This document shows, piece after piece, positions 10,939-15,527 of a DNA stretch of 35,850 nucleotides. How positions within the stretch are numbered: position 1 is the first letter of the stretch; every line of letters starts with the position of its first letter. The DNA comes from a virus: the IMG/VR virus record IMGVR_UViG_3300048823_000040, positions 1 through 35,850 of that record; one strand, given 5' to 3'. The position numbers and the translations under genes were made by a program. The notes under the pieces were generated by a model. The model did no database searches, had not been told where the DNA came from, and saw only the letters and a list, made by a program, of their open reading frames with translations.

Positions 10939-11235
10939 ATGGAAACTAGGGCAAAGCCAAAAAGCGACCGCACGCAATTCACGGCGTGGATTTCCAAGTA
11001 TGCGCTGACGCAAGGCGTTTTCGAATGTCCCGTCGAAGATTGCTTTGAGACGGATTTGGCTATGGTCAAAGACCTTACCGAAGGATCATACGCCTATTAT
11101 CACGGCAATGATTGGCATCGGACCCGCGAGGGGGCGGTTGCGAGCGCCGAAGAAATGCGCATCGCCAAGATTTCGTCGCTTCGCAAGTCTCTAAAAAAGT
11201 TCAAGGGTCTGACGTTTACTACGAGGCCGAAATGA
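10939..11235 (+). CDS. hypothetical early protein
   Basis: 98 residues from an ATG at 10939 behind AGGAAGGAAGAG. It contains FTAWISKYALTQGVFECPVE and a basic C-terminus (SSLRKSLKKFKGLTFTTRPK). The paired Cys and aromatic content (YAYYHGNDWHRTREGA) suggest a small compact fold; nothing recognised. The following 58 bases lack a gene until the site for the frameshifted gene at 11294. Confidence 0.65.
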   Translation: METRAKPKSDRTQFTAWISKYALTQGVFECPVEDCFETDLAMVKDLTEGSYAYYHGNDWHRTREGAVASAEEMRIAKISSLRKSLKKFKGLTFTTRPK

Positions 11236-12449: not shown

Positions 12450-12814
12450 CCCACGCGATTGATCCCGCCGTTGTAGAACGCGCGGCGGAGAGCGCCTATG
12501 CAGTTTTTCGCACTGCTATGGGGGTTTCTGTCCCGAAACGGTCGGCTGTTCCGACAGAAACAAAGAAAATCTGGCAAGCTATCGCCCGCGCCGTCCTCGC
12601 GTCCGCCATCCGCGAGGCGGTGGAACAGGAGCGGGAGTTGATCAAGCGCGCGTACCTCGGCGTGAGCGTGTTGCGCACAATGCTTCAGAAAGAGGGTATG
12701 CGGCTAGGCGTGCAAGCCGCCGACGACCTGATGGCCGACATGGCATCGCTTATGCCGGAACTGCCGGGAACATTGGCGCTTCGCTCCCGCACCAAGGACA
12801 ACGCAAATGTCTGA
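12446..12814 (+). CDS. accessory protein with shared REAVE module
   Basis: 122 residues, ATGA-coupled to the broken membrane gene. It starts MTHAIDPAVVERAAESAYAV and includes ASAIREAVEQERELIKRAYL. The SAIREAVE-E/G-R/E segment recurs in the proteins at 13354 and 14588, with near-identical DNA. The C-terminus has ADDLMADMASLMPELPG. Helical, soluble, unknown function; first member of the quilted cluster. Confidence 0.7.
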   Translation: MTHAIDPAVVERAAESAYAVFRTAMGVSVPKRSAVPTETKKIWQAIARAVLASAIREAVEQERELIKRAYLGVSVLRTMLQKEGMRLGVQAADDLMADMASLMPELPGTLALRSRTKDNANV

Positions 12815-13361
12815 CGCAGGGAAGATCGATACGTCGAGGGAGGCAGTGGCGAAGCGGCTTGAGCGTCTGGAGTCGCTTGTCGAGCGTGGCTGGATTGATG
12901 GCGATGTCGTCGATCTAGTTTCCGCTCTCTCCGCCGCGCTCAGCGAAGCGAGGGGGAAGGTGGACGAACTGGAAGCCCTGCGCGAGCAGCAAGCCGCAGC
13001 GTTCGTGAAATTTGCAAAGGATCGGCCAGTCGCACCCCATCCGGTTGACCAGATGGAAAACCTACGCCGAGCGATGACGACCGACATTGAGATTGAGAAG
13101 TTGGAAGCCGAGCGCGACTCCGCCCTCGACGAACTGGCGAAACTGCGCGCCGAGGCGGAGTGGCGGCCGATCGAGAGTGCGCCGAGGGATGGTACCAAAG
13201 TCCTAGTCGCGTTGCACGAGTTCAATGATCCAGCAAACCCCTACGTCAGTTGCTTTGCCACGTTTGAGAACGGCTCATGGATTGAGGAAGGCGATCCAAT
13301 CTATCAGCCAGACTACTTCTTCGCTCTCCCCTCCCCGCCAAAGGACCCAGCCCATGACTGA
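12807..13361 (+). CDS. mosaic accessory protein with C-terminal DUF551-like domain
   Basis: 184 residues. Residues 1-45 are helical; 45-105 form a coiled-coil module (VDELEALREQQAAAFVKFAK, MENLRRAMTTDIEIEKLEAE) repeated almost exactly in the protein at 13650. Residues 118-184 are DUF551-like: WRPIESAPRDGTKVLVALHE, an aromatic middle, and the closing ALPSPPKDPAHD. The same DUF551 end is found at 14146. It overlaps the next gene by eight bases. Function unknown; the gene shows segment exchange with its neighbours. Confidence 0.75.
   Translation: MSDAGKIDTSREAVAKRLERLESLVERGWIDGDVVDLVSALSAALSEARGKVDELEALREQQAAAFVKFAKDRPVAPHPVDQMENLRRAMTTDIEIEKLEAERDSALDELAKLRAEAEWRPIESAPRDGTKVLVALHEFNDPANPYVSCFATFENGSWIEEGDPIYQPDYFFALPSPPKDPAHD
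12960..13121 (+). repeat. 162-bp direct repeat, copy 1
   Basis: This segment matches 13899-14060 over 162 bases with five substitutions by my count and no gaps. It encodes the same coiled-coil module in the same frame in both genes. Confidence 0.95.
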
Positions 13362-13653
13362 GACAGACGCACAAACACGGCGAGATATAGCCCGCGCCAT
13401 GCTGCGCATGTTCGAGGAAGTAGAGGGCGCGGCAGTAGACAGAATGCTGTCTGCACTTCGATTTGCCGAGAGCAACCTTCCCGCCGAGTCCCACCCCTCC
13501 GCCATCCGCGAGGCGGTAGAAGGGGAGAGGGAGGCCTGCGCGAAGCTTGTTGCGGCTTACGGCATAGCGGGAATGCCGTTCGATGTTGGTTCATGGACGC
13601 CAGGAGCGGTCGCCGCCGCCATCCGCGCGCGGAGAGAGGAGAATGGCAAATGA
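13354..13653 (+). CDS. accessory protein with REAVE and AAAIRAR modules
   Basis: 99 residues starting MTETDAQTRRDIARAMLRMF. The middle HPSAIREAVEGEREACAKLV and the end VAAAIRARREENGK both recur in the protein at 14588 with near-identical DNA. The (E)REACAKL...AAIRAR layout is widespread in phage early proteins of unknown function. Start at 13354 overlaps the preceding gene by eight bases; it couples to the next by ATGA. Confidence 0.7.
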   Translation: MTETDAQTRRDIARAMLRMFEEVEGAAVDRMLSALRFAESNLPAESHPSAIREAVEGEREACAKLVAAYGIAGMPFDVGSWTPGAVAAAIRARREENGK

Positions 13654-14156
13654 ACGCCGATCAGATCAAACACATGGTGGACCGCTTCTTGATGTGGCCT
13701 CTGCCGAGGAATTTCACCCCGGACAACGGCATCAGTTATAAGCGGCCGAATTACGCGCCGAACGTCCCCGGCCCGAGCGGCACCAACTTGCTCGACGCTA
13801 CGCAAGCCGCCGCAATGGTGCGCCACATGGTTGACGGGCTTCCCACCGTCAACTCCCACGCCCCCCTCACCGCCGCGCTGGAGGAAGCACGAGGGAAGGT
13901 GGACGAACTGGAAGCCCTGCGCGAGCAGCAAGCCGCAGCGTTCGTGAAATTTGCAGAGGATCGGCCAGTCGCGCCCCATCCGGTTGACCAGATGGAAAAT
14001 CTGCGCCGAGCGATGACGACCGACATTGAGATTGAGAAGCTGGAAGCCGAGCGCGACTCCCTCCGCTCCAAGCTCGCCGAGGCGGAACGGGAGAGGGACG
14101 AGGCGAGACGGCAAATTGACGACCTGTGCGACAGAGGACCACGCCATGAACGATGA
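13650..14156 (+). CDS. mosaic accessory protein with shared coiled-coil module
   Basis: 168 residues. The N-terminus MNADQIKHMVDRFLMWPLPR followed by a GISYKRPNY segment is a common phage hypothetical domain (residues 1-70). Residues 84-137 are encoded by copy 2 of the 162-bp repeat. The end is a charged coiled coil (KLAEAERERDEARRQIDDL). It overlaps its downstream neighbour by 11 bases. Function unknown. Confidence 0.75.
   Translation: MNADQIKHMVDRFLMWPLPRNFTPDNGISYKRPNYAPNVPGPSGTNLLDATQAAAMVRHMVDGLPTVNSHAPLTAALEEARGKVDELEALREQQAAAFVKFAEDRPVAPHPVDQMENLRRAMTTDIEIEKLEAERDSLRSKLAEAERERDEARRQIDDLCDRGPRHER
13899..14060 (+). repeat. 162-bp direct repeat, copy 2
   Basis: Partner of 12960-13121, 939 bases downstream in the same orientation. 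The level of identity, including third codon positions, indicates recent duplication or gene conversion. Recombination between the copies would delete about 0.94 kb and fuse the two genes in frame. Confidence 0.95.
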
Positions 14157-14595
14157 ACCGAAAGTCGATACCAGCGACGAGGCGTGTGCGCTCATCTGCG
14201 CGATCGTCTCGAACCCGCAAGGCTCGCTCCGCAAAGACGGTGATGGCTGGCAGCGCCGCGTCAACGATCTCATCCGGACATTGCGCGACGAGCGACACAA
14301 GCTCGCCACTGAGACGATAATGACCCGCGTCGCTGTTGATGCGCTGAAAGCCGAGCGCGTCGCCGCCCTATCCGAACTCGCGAAACTGCGCGCCGAGGCG
14401 GAGTGGCAGCCGATCGAGACAATGCCGAAGGGCGAGGAAATCTTCATGGCCGCGACGGCGGACGGCCGGATCATGATCTTCCGAGGCAGCATCCTCGCCA
14501 ACATGATGAAGCACTCGACGCCGGATCATTTGCAGTTTCCGGCAGTCGCTTGGAAACCCCTCCCCTCCCCGCCAAAGGACCCCGCCCATGACTGA
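14146..14595 (+). CDS. mosaic accessory protein with DUF551-like C-terminus
   Basis: 149 residues from an ATG behind AGAGGACC. It opens MNDEPKVDTSDEACALICAI and has a helical middle. From about residue 82 it shares LAKLRAEAEWQPIETMPKGE with the gene at 12807 and ends in the same WKPLPSPPKDPAHD. The DNA of the last ~40 bases and first bases of the next gene is nearly the same at both places, showing that whole gene junctions have been copied. Confidence 0.7.
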   Translation: MNDEPKVDTSDEACALICAIVSNPQGSLRKDGDGWQRRVNDLIRTLRDERHKLATETIMTRVAVDALKAERVAALSELAKLRAEAEWQPIETMPKGEEIFMAATADGRIMIFRGSILANMMKHSTPDHLQFPAVAWKPLPSPPKDPAHD

Positions 14596-15118
14596 GACCC
14601 CGACTGACAAGAAGCTGAGCGAGAGGTTCGCGGAGGCACGCGACGCCAAGGTCTTTAGCGGCGTGCTGCTTGACGAAGTTCAAGCCGCCCTTCGCGTCGC
14701 CGAGTTCCACCCCTCCGCCGGCGCGTTCAAGCTCCACGATCCCGTTCAGAAGAAATCCGGCGCGTCCTGGCGCGGCAAGGTCGTTGGGTTCTACGCAACA
14801 GGACTGACCCCACGCGGCTACTGCGTCGAGTCGGCGAATGAACCGGGCAGCGTGCAAATCTATCCCGAGGCCGCGCTGGTCGAATGGAAGCCGGAACTGT
14901 CCCACCCCTCCGCCATCCGCGAGGCGGTGGAAGGGGATAGGGAGCGTTGTTCGATCTGCGATGAGATCGTCGAGATTGATGACGAGCGCATTCGTCAGGA
15001 AGAGCGCGGCTTCGTCGATTCACCCGGCGGCTTCGAACACATGGGCGACGTTTGGAACCAAATCAGCAAATGGGCCGCCGCCATCCGCGCGCGGGGAGAG
15101 GAGAAGGGGAATGGCTAA
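14588..15118 (+). CDS. accessory protein with embedded type II (R67/DfrB-like) dihydrofolate reductase domain
   Basis: 176 residues. Residues 49-97 (14732-14878) match the SH3-like core of R67 dihydrofolate reductase: VQKKSGASWRGKVVGFY, TGLTPRGYCVES and PGSVQIYPEAAL. With a constant offset of 23 and no gap, the R67 positions Lys32, Trp38, Tyr46, Thr51, Gly64, Val66, Gln67, Ile68 and Tyr69 are all present (as 55, 61, 69, 74, 87, 89-92). R67 is a homotetramer with one central active site and is insensitive to trimethoprim. Here the core lies between an N-terminal helical segment and a C-terminal REAVEG...AAAIRAR module shared with neighbours. Enzyme activity is untested; the fold could serve another role. 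Confidence 0.85.
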   Translation: MTETPTDKKLSERFAEARDAKVFSGVLLDEVQAALRVAEFHPSAGAFKLHDPVQKKSGASWRGKVVGFYATGLTPRGYCVESANEPGSVQIYPEAALVEWKPELSHPSAIREAVEGDRERCSICDEIVEIDDERIRQEERGFVDSPGGFEHMGDVWNQISKWAAAIRARGEEKGNG

Positions 15119-15527
15119 GTGGTATCTCGGATCAATGAACGACGCCCTGTTCATCATCGACAAGCCGCCTATGCCCGCACCTGACGACACCGGGCCATAC
15201 GAAATGCCGAACGGCCCAAAGCCGATCTCGGCGGCCATCGACGAACGAAACGGCGAACTGATCGTTGCTGCACACAACGCCACCATCGCCACCCTCATCG
15301 CCGCGCTGGAGGAAGCGCGAGGGGCGTTGGAGGTGTTCGCGAAAGTCGGCTCTCTGATTGAGGGTCCATTTGGGCCAGCTCTCTTCGTCGGGCACGACCA
15401 CGCATTCAAATCAGGATGTTCATGGACCGAGAATGGCGAAAAGAAAACCCTGACGTGGGGGCAGTTCCGCCGCGCCCGCGCCACCCTCGCAACCATCAAC
15501 GCAGCGCTGGGGAGGGTGGAGGGATGA
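15111..15527 (+). CDS. accessory protein of unknown function
   Basis: 138 residues from an ATG at 15111 after GGAGAGGAGAAGGGG. It opens MAKWYLGSMNDALFIIDKPP; the middle has a coiled-coil segment IAALEEARGALEVFAKVGSL, and the end TWGQFRRARATLATINAALG is a motif common at the C-terminus of phage early proteins. The aromatic centre (GHDHAFKSGCSWTENGE) resembles no family I know. Coupled by ATGA to the small membrane protein. Confidence 0.7.
   Translation: MAKWYLGSMNDALFIIDKPPMPAPDDTGPYEMPNGPKPISAAIDERNGELIVAAHNATIATLIAALEEARGALEVFAKVGSLIEGPFGPALFVGHDHAFKSGCSWTENGEKKTLTWGQFRRARATLATINAALGRVEG

Follow-up and report, generated by a model that had tools for sequence, protein, structure and literature searches.

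DfrB enzymes, among them the plasmid-borne, trimethoprim-insensitive type II dihydrofolate reductase R67 (DfrB1), confer resistance to trimethoprim at very high levels, but where they come from and which function they have in nature has been described as unknown (PMC9835603, PMC11662351). The original dfrB hosts were placed in the Burkholderiales (PMC11662351), and the catalytic mechanism of the enzymes was termed primitive and proximity-based (PMC9835603). Homologues in which the DfrB domain is embedded in a larger protein (DfrB-H) have been described; they retain the VQIY stretch, K32, and W38 and have lost W45, and two of them derive from phages, one from a Pseudomonas phage and one from a Vibrio phage (PMC9835603). 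Resistance or activity was found for four of the five homologues tested. DfrB-H5 from Methylobacterium forms a tetramer with a kcat of 1.1 per s compared to 0.83 for DfrB1, and DfrB-H4 from the Vibrio phage confers a resistance phenotype; in the case of DfrB-H3 from the Pseudomonas phage no resistance was observed, which was attributed to poor expression. DfrB-H6 stems from a sphingomonad. The same study proposed that the DfrB domain was extracted from such proteins into the resistome (PMC9835603). Eight dfrB-type candidates were reported among lytic phages (PMC12466917).

The window analyzed here is the full 35,850-nt stretch of the IMG/VR viral contig IMGVR_UViG_3300048823_000040. On its plus strand, an open reading frame (ORF) at positions 14588 to 15118, with the sequence AAAGGA about 10 bases 5′ of its ATG, encodes a protein of 176 residues that carries a DfrB-like domain in its center. 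Residues 30 to 97 matched the Pfam family PF06442 (R67 dihydrofolate reductase) with an E value of 6.5e-23 and a score of 80.8 bits, above the curated cut-off of 25, and a phmmer search of PDB chains matched the protein to R67 chains with an E value of 9.5e-18. The SH3-like core formed by residues 47 to 97 (14726 to 14878, plus strand) aligned with residues 24 to 74 of R67 without gaps and with 33 of 51 residues identical (65%). A preliminary description of this DNA had assigned an R67-type domain to positions 14732 to 14878, which corresponds to the core minus its first two residues, and had aligned residues 49 to 97 with R67 without gaps at a constant offset of 23; this alignment was reproduced, with 32 of the 49 residues identical to R67 residues 26 to 74.

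It had also noted that the active-site positions are kept, and this holds true for K32, W38, Y46, T51, and the VQIY stretch (V66, Q67, I68, and Y69) as well as for G64 and S65, all of which are identical in the window protein and R67. The domain thus possesses VQIY, K32, and W38, by which members of the PF06442 family are recognized. Lys55 (14750 to 14752, plus strand) corresponds to R67 Lys32, the ligand-binding lysine at the pore, and is invariant across our alignment (effective number of sequences, 37). Trp61 (14768 to 14770, plus strand) corresponds to Trp38 at the dimer-dimer interface, and the VQIY stretch is formed by V89, Q90, I91, and Y92 (14852 to 14863, plus strand). Phe68 (14789 to 14791, plus strand) takes the position of R67 Trp45, the only named interface residue that is lost, as it also is in the published DfrB-H proteins (PMC9835603).

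In an AlphaFold2 model of the single chain, the core showed pLDDT values of 94 to 96, whereas the flanking helices were predicted weakly. Superposition of the modeled core on the R67 structure 1VIE gave a target TM score of 0.95 and an rmsd of 0.9 Å, indicating an R67-like SH3 barrel. Foldseek placed seven R67 crystal structures on top (E values of 4e-8 to 2e-7), which overlay the model with an rmsd of 0.7 to 0.9 Å and target TM scores of 0.95 to 0.97. R67 structures alone were found below an E value of 1e-3, and the next unrelated chain followed at 8e-3. A better match to another SH3-like family, which the preliminary description had considered, was rejected on this basis, given the wide gap behind the R67 entries. 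The Pfam and PDB matches, the alignment, and the model agree in identifying an R67/DfrB-type domain within a larger phage protein and thereby confirm the initial observation.

The plus strand of the window encodes, among others, an Erf-like annealing protein, a RecE-like exonuclease, and HNH endonucleases, and its minus strand carries tail and head-closure genes. The DfrB-like gene belongs to a packed block of plus-strand genes, downstream of the recombination genes and opposite to the structural genes, in agreement with its previous designation as an early gene. Its start overlaps with the stop of the preceding ORF, and the next gene of the packed operon (15111 to 15527, plus strand) starts within its end; these overlaps of a few bases with both neighbors suggest translational coupling. 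A megablast search with positions 11000 to 35850 of the window against the annotated phage collection revealed no close phage relative.

The core is flanked by two modules. The N-terminal module (residues 1 to 46; 14588 to 14725, plus strand) contains two helices predicted with low confidence by AlphaFold2 (residues 5 to 19 and 25 to 38). It is missing in the closest relative (L020/L003), in which just 15 residues precede the core, and was unmatched among the other loci compared. The C-terminal module (residues 98 to 176; 14879 to 15115, plus strand) contains three helices, likewise predicted with low confidence by AlphaFold2 (residues 107 to 120, 122 to 144, and 149 to 172). Residues 102 to 122 recur in the unrelated window ORF 13225-13653, where a copy of the SHPSAIREAVEGEREAC segment is found at positions 13480 to 13542 on the plus strand (76% identity over 21 residues, E value of 3.2e-5), which marks this segment as a shuffled module. 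Among the loci compared, the flanking modules are common only to the nearest relatives and the neighboring ORF. In L020 the core is 87% identical to that of the window protein and the tail is similar. The dN/dS ratio between the two cores was 0.24, or 0.19 when the core edges were included, showing that the domain is under purifying selection. A separate observation in the early block concerns the window ORFs 12807-13361 and 13593-14156, which are nearly identical to each other over about 70 residues (EARGKVDELEALREQQAAAFVKFA.DRPVAPHPVDQMENLRRAMTTDIEIEKLEAERDS), a recent module duplication.

The preliminary description had proposed to look for the same core in other phages, and the DfrB domain was indeed found in 26 phage records and 83 viral contigs, besides 38 bacterial genome loci; the scans of IMG/VR and of the genomes used the VQIY motif. 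Of 78 readable viral proteins, 29 were standalone, with fewer than 40 extra residues on either side, while an extension of at least 40 residues was present at the N terminus in 43 and at the C terminus in 16. In RHph_N38, one of the Rhizobium Schitoviridae, the DfrB-like gene is unannotated, and the HTH protein annotated at this place occupies a different frame only. The record of Aeromonas phage AsC4_1 starts with an unannotated DfrB-like frame (L019 1-155) that contains an in-frame stop codon and looks broken. In the DfrB alignment, which is partly motif-selected, K32, V66, Q67, and Y69 were invariant and I68 nearly so, and the mean column entropy was 0.04 at K32 and positions 66 to 69 versus 1.37 elsewhere. 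As the scan motif was VQIY itself, part of the conservation of this stretch in the sets from IMG/VR and the genomes follows from the selection. Twelve phage sequences had been found independently of the motif; K32, W38, V66, Q67, and Y69 were present in all 12 of them and I68 in 11.

We propose that the central SH3-like domains of four chains of the window protein would assemble in the manner of R67 around a single central pore. K55, V89, Q90, I91, and Y92 would line this pore, where NADPH and dihydrofolate would be bound side by side and hydride would be transferred between them. The helical N- and C-terminal modules would hang outside the tetramer as exchangeable phage modules with no share in the active site. 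We favor this mechanism with some reserve, whereas catalytic competence as such is quite probable. As the window protein is of the same kind as the DfrB-H proteins, its likely biochemistry can be inferred from the relatives that were measured (PMC9835603), and tetramer formation and dihydrofolate reduction are both expected on these grounds. The worry that the C-terminal extension might block the tetramer is weakened by the fact that the embedded DfrB-H5 (41.6 kDa) tetramerizes and is active (PMC9835603). The interpretation given in the preliminary description is supported in part. A phage that encodes a thymidylate synthase itself would require a reductase for the regeneration of tetrahydrofolate; in the window phage, where tblastn with one ThyA and one ThyX query detected neither enzyme, the reductase would have to serve the thymidylate synthase of the host. 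That dihydrofolate reduction is the selected role in this phage is a tentative assignment to which we give somewhat less than an even chance, and selection for the reduction of dihydrofolate or another pterin is likewise suggested less strongly than the biochemical activity.

Alternatively, the domain might be a non-catalytic, tetramerizing scaffold that binds a ligand (nucleotide, pterin, or nucleic acid) and displays unrelated phage modules, with dihydrofolate reduction by the pore as a fortuitous side activity, which was suggested for the ancestors of DfrB (PMC9835603). The primitive, proximity-based catalysis described for DfrB is compatible with such a role (PMC9835603), and so is the nature of the partners: a Pfam scan of 51 embedded DfrB proteins recognized as other domains only Lar (two proteins) and thymidylate synthase (one protein). 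K32, Q67, I68, and Y69, however, are conserved more strictly than a scaffold requires, and we consider this explanation unlikely, though a serious contender.

The protein with the thymidylate synthase partner is encoded by an uninterrupted ORF on the 71-kb phage contig IMGVR_UViG_3300020045_001617 (L075 6001-6999, identical to L149 5001-5999), the ATG of which is preceded by GGGAGAG. It comprises a DfrB domain at residues 2 to 52 (PF06442, E value of 2.5e-18), followed at residues 65 to 331 by a complete thymidylate synthase (PF00303, E value of 1.2e-107), which keeps the catalytic PPCH and the Asn residue marking true thymidylate synthases. Judged by its sequence, the ORF apparently encodes a DHFR-TS built on the R67 fold; it was found on one contig from a metagenome, and translation of a separate ThyA could begin at codon 55, an in-frame GTG. 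The fusion looks recent, as its ThyA part is nearest to the unfused ThyA of L150 (84% identity, clade support of 100/100). In the contig of L050 (L148 1486-3058), genes for ThyX, a 148-residue protein (phrog_15098), and a standalone DfrB protein are arranged in this order. In four further candidates detected by tblastn upstream of ThyA (L156, L174, L181, and L168), the extra part was not a DfrB domain. A general link between DfrB and thymidylate synthase was not supported: of 50 DfrB-bearing records, 9 contained a ThyA-family gene and 1 contained ThyX, mostly in non-adjacent positions, and a thymidylate synthase was present inside the fetched flank of only two DfrB loci. FolA was found in none of the 50 records. 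Most DfrB phages, including the window phage, are without a link to thymidylate synthase, which is in line with a scaffold role.

The search with the DfrB-ThyA fusion also reached the Rhizobium phages RHEph10 and RHph_N1_10, in which an in-frame SH3-like domain (DRVTKITGDYSFDG...VVEDDRGALHIYSEQNL) is located upstream of the annotated thyA starts. The extended frames (RHEph10, L239 3983-4999; RHph_N1_10, L240 3983-4978) open at TTG (in RHEph10 at 61483) and are preceded by AAGGA-like sites. The conservation of the domain between both phages, with a dN/dS ratio of 0.11, indicates that it is translated, and the annotated thyA starts miss it. The two genes do not represent DfrB-ThyA fusions, as the N-terminal domain is not PF06442 and has no Pfam match; it belongs to a family remotely related to DfrB. 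Profile-profile comparison of this family with DfrB gave a probability of 93, a P value of 3e-7, and a score of 34.7, compared to a maximum of 16.3 over 60 column shuffles. K32, I68, and Y69 correspond in the two families, and Q67 is replaced by His. A model of the related domain (pLDDT of 92.8) had the Q67H mutant of R67 as its top Foldseek match (E value of 5.7e-3, 30% identity); in the structural Z scores R67 was tied with Tudor domains, and the kinship with DfrB therefore rests on the sequence-profile match.

The related family, characterized by GDYxFxG...VVEDDRGxLHIYS, was found in 80 viral loci (L248 to L327). In 6 of them the domain is fused to ThyA and in 28 more it lies at most 3 kb from a ThyA-family gene, the neighboring genes often overlapping by a few bases; a link is thus present in 34 of the 80 loci and, after clustering at 80% identity, in 9 of 20 clusters. 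The linked ThyA-family genes form two lineages. True thymidylate synthases with Asn hold all of the fusions, whereas a second, marine lineage has Asp instead, like dCMP-hydroxymethylase-like enzymes, and in this marine group the SH3 domain often follows a DUF1599 nucleotide-modification domain. As enzymes of the Asp type would not form dihydrofolate, a role as reductase agrees well with the fused group and less well with the marine one. FolA was found in none of 23 contigs with both the SH3 domain and thymidylate synthase, but in 5 of 27 with thymidylate synthase alone (one-sided p of ~0.04 if the contigs are taken as independent); since they are related and unequal in length, the absence of FolA is only suggestive of a replacement. 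Of 289 alphaproteobacterial genomes, a single one contained the related family, which is therefore mainly viral there.

The ThyA fusion and the ThyA-linked related family both point to the folate/thymidylate cycle of phages as the natural setting of the fold and argue against a mere scaffold. They also count, as does the ThyX-DfrB gene order of L050/L148, in favor of the proposed mechanism. DfrB-type SH3 domains might be native folate-cycle enzymes of phages that would supply thymidylate synthase with regenerated tetrahydrofolate, in some cases as one enzyme of two fused domains, and the family with K32 and His67 might consist of remotely related reductases and be a candidate source of the DfrB fold. 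This joint reading is possible, but we put it well short of an even chance; if it is true, the window protein would be a reductase of the phage rather than an accidental scaffold.

The tie with Tudor domains seen for the related family, together with the fact that small SH3-like barrels commonly bind nucleic acid or peptide, would also fit another proposal of the preliminary description, a nucleic-acid-binding SH3/Tudor-like barrel without tetramer or catalysis, but below the 1e-3 threshold the window protein itself matched only R67 structures, and it keeps W38 at the interface as well as the pore residues, which makes this proposal improbable. That the domain is a functionless passenger in the window phage, decaying or transient, as might be expected from an early block built of shuffled modules and from the stop codon in the AsC4_1 frame, is more improbable still, given the intact frame, the low dN/dS ratio, and the retention of the core in the closest relative despite its different N terminus.

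Compared with known systems, the window core resembles DfrB1/R67 over 51 residues without gaps, with the same pore residues and W38 and the same predicted fold. The resistance enzymes DfrB1 to DfrB21, however, are standalone proteins of 78 residues, whereas the window protein has 176 residues, with the core at 47 to 97, helical modules on both sides, and W45 replaced by Phe; DfrB1/R67 is encoded in an integron cassette and the window gene in a phage early block. Genes annotated as "dihydrofolate reductase protein" in the Rhizobium phages RHph_TM3_3_3 and RHph_N3_2, in Rhizobium phages of the Schitoviridae, and in Ochrobactrum phage ZX86 share the domain with the window gene and are located in early or middle blocks, either standalone or embedded, but their flanks differ from those of the window protein. 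The Schitoviridae copies are, unlike the window protein, standalone proteins of about 90 residues encoded beside the virion RNA polymerase gene; in four Rhizobium Schitoviridae (L010, L014, L016, and L018) the DfrB-like gene always has a RusA-like gene on one side and the gene for the virion RNA polymerase on the other. Phage thyA-folA tandems (PMC7725336), such as those of the Rhizobium phages N34 and Y68, follow a folate/thymidylate logic of which the DfrB-ThyA fusion would also be part, but use the unrelated FolA fold, and the window phage differs from them in the lack of a ThyA match.

The closest likeness is to the DfrB-H proteins, in which an SH3-like domain is also embedded among unrelated modules in a phage and VQIY, K32, and W38 are kept while W45 is replaced, in the window protein by Phe; some of these relatives were measured biochemically, whereas the window protein is known from sequence and model. 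The window gene is one more phage-embedded homologue of this known kind, and the idea of such domains as a reservoir or ancestor of the resistance enzymes is not new (PMC9835603). What is new, the DfrB-ThyA fusion and the remotely related family, lies outside the window and makes the natural role of DfrB testable by simple enzyme assays. Ordinary as it is as a member of the DfrB-H group, the window gene leads to a testable proposal for what the DfrB fold does in nature.
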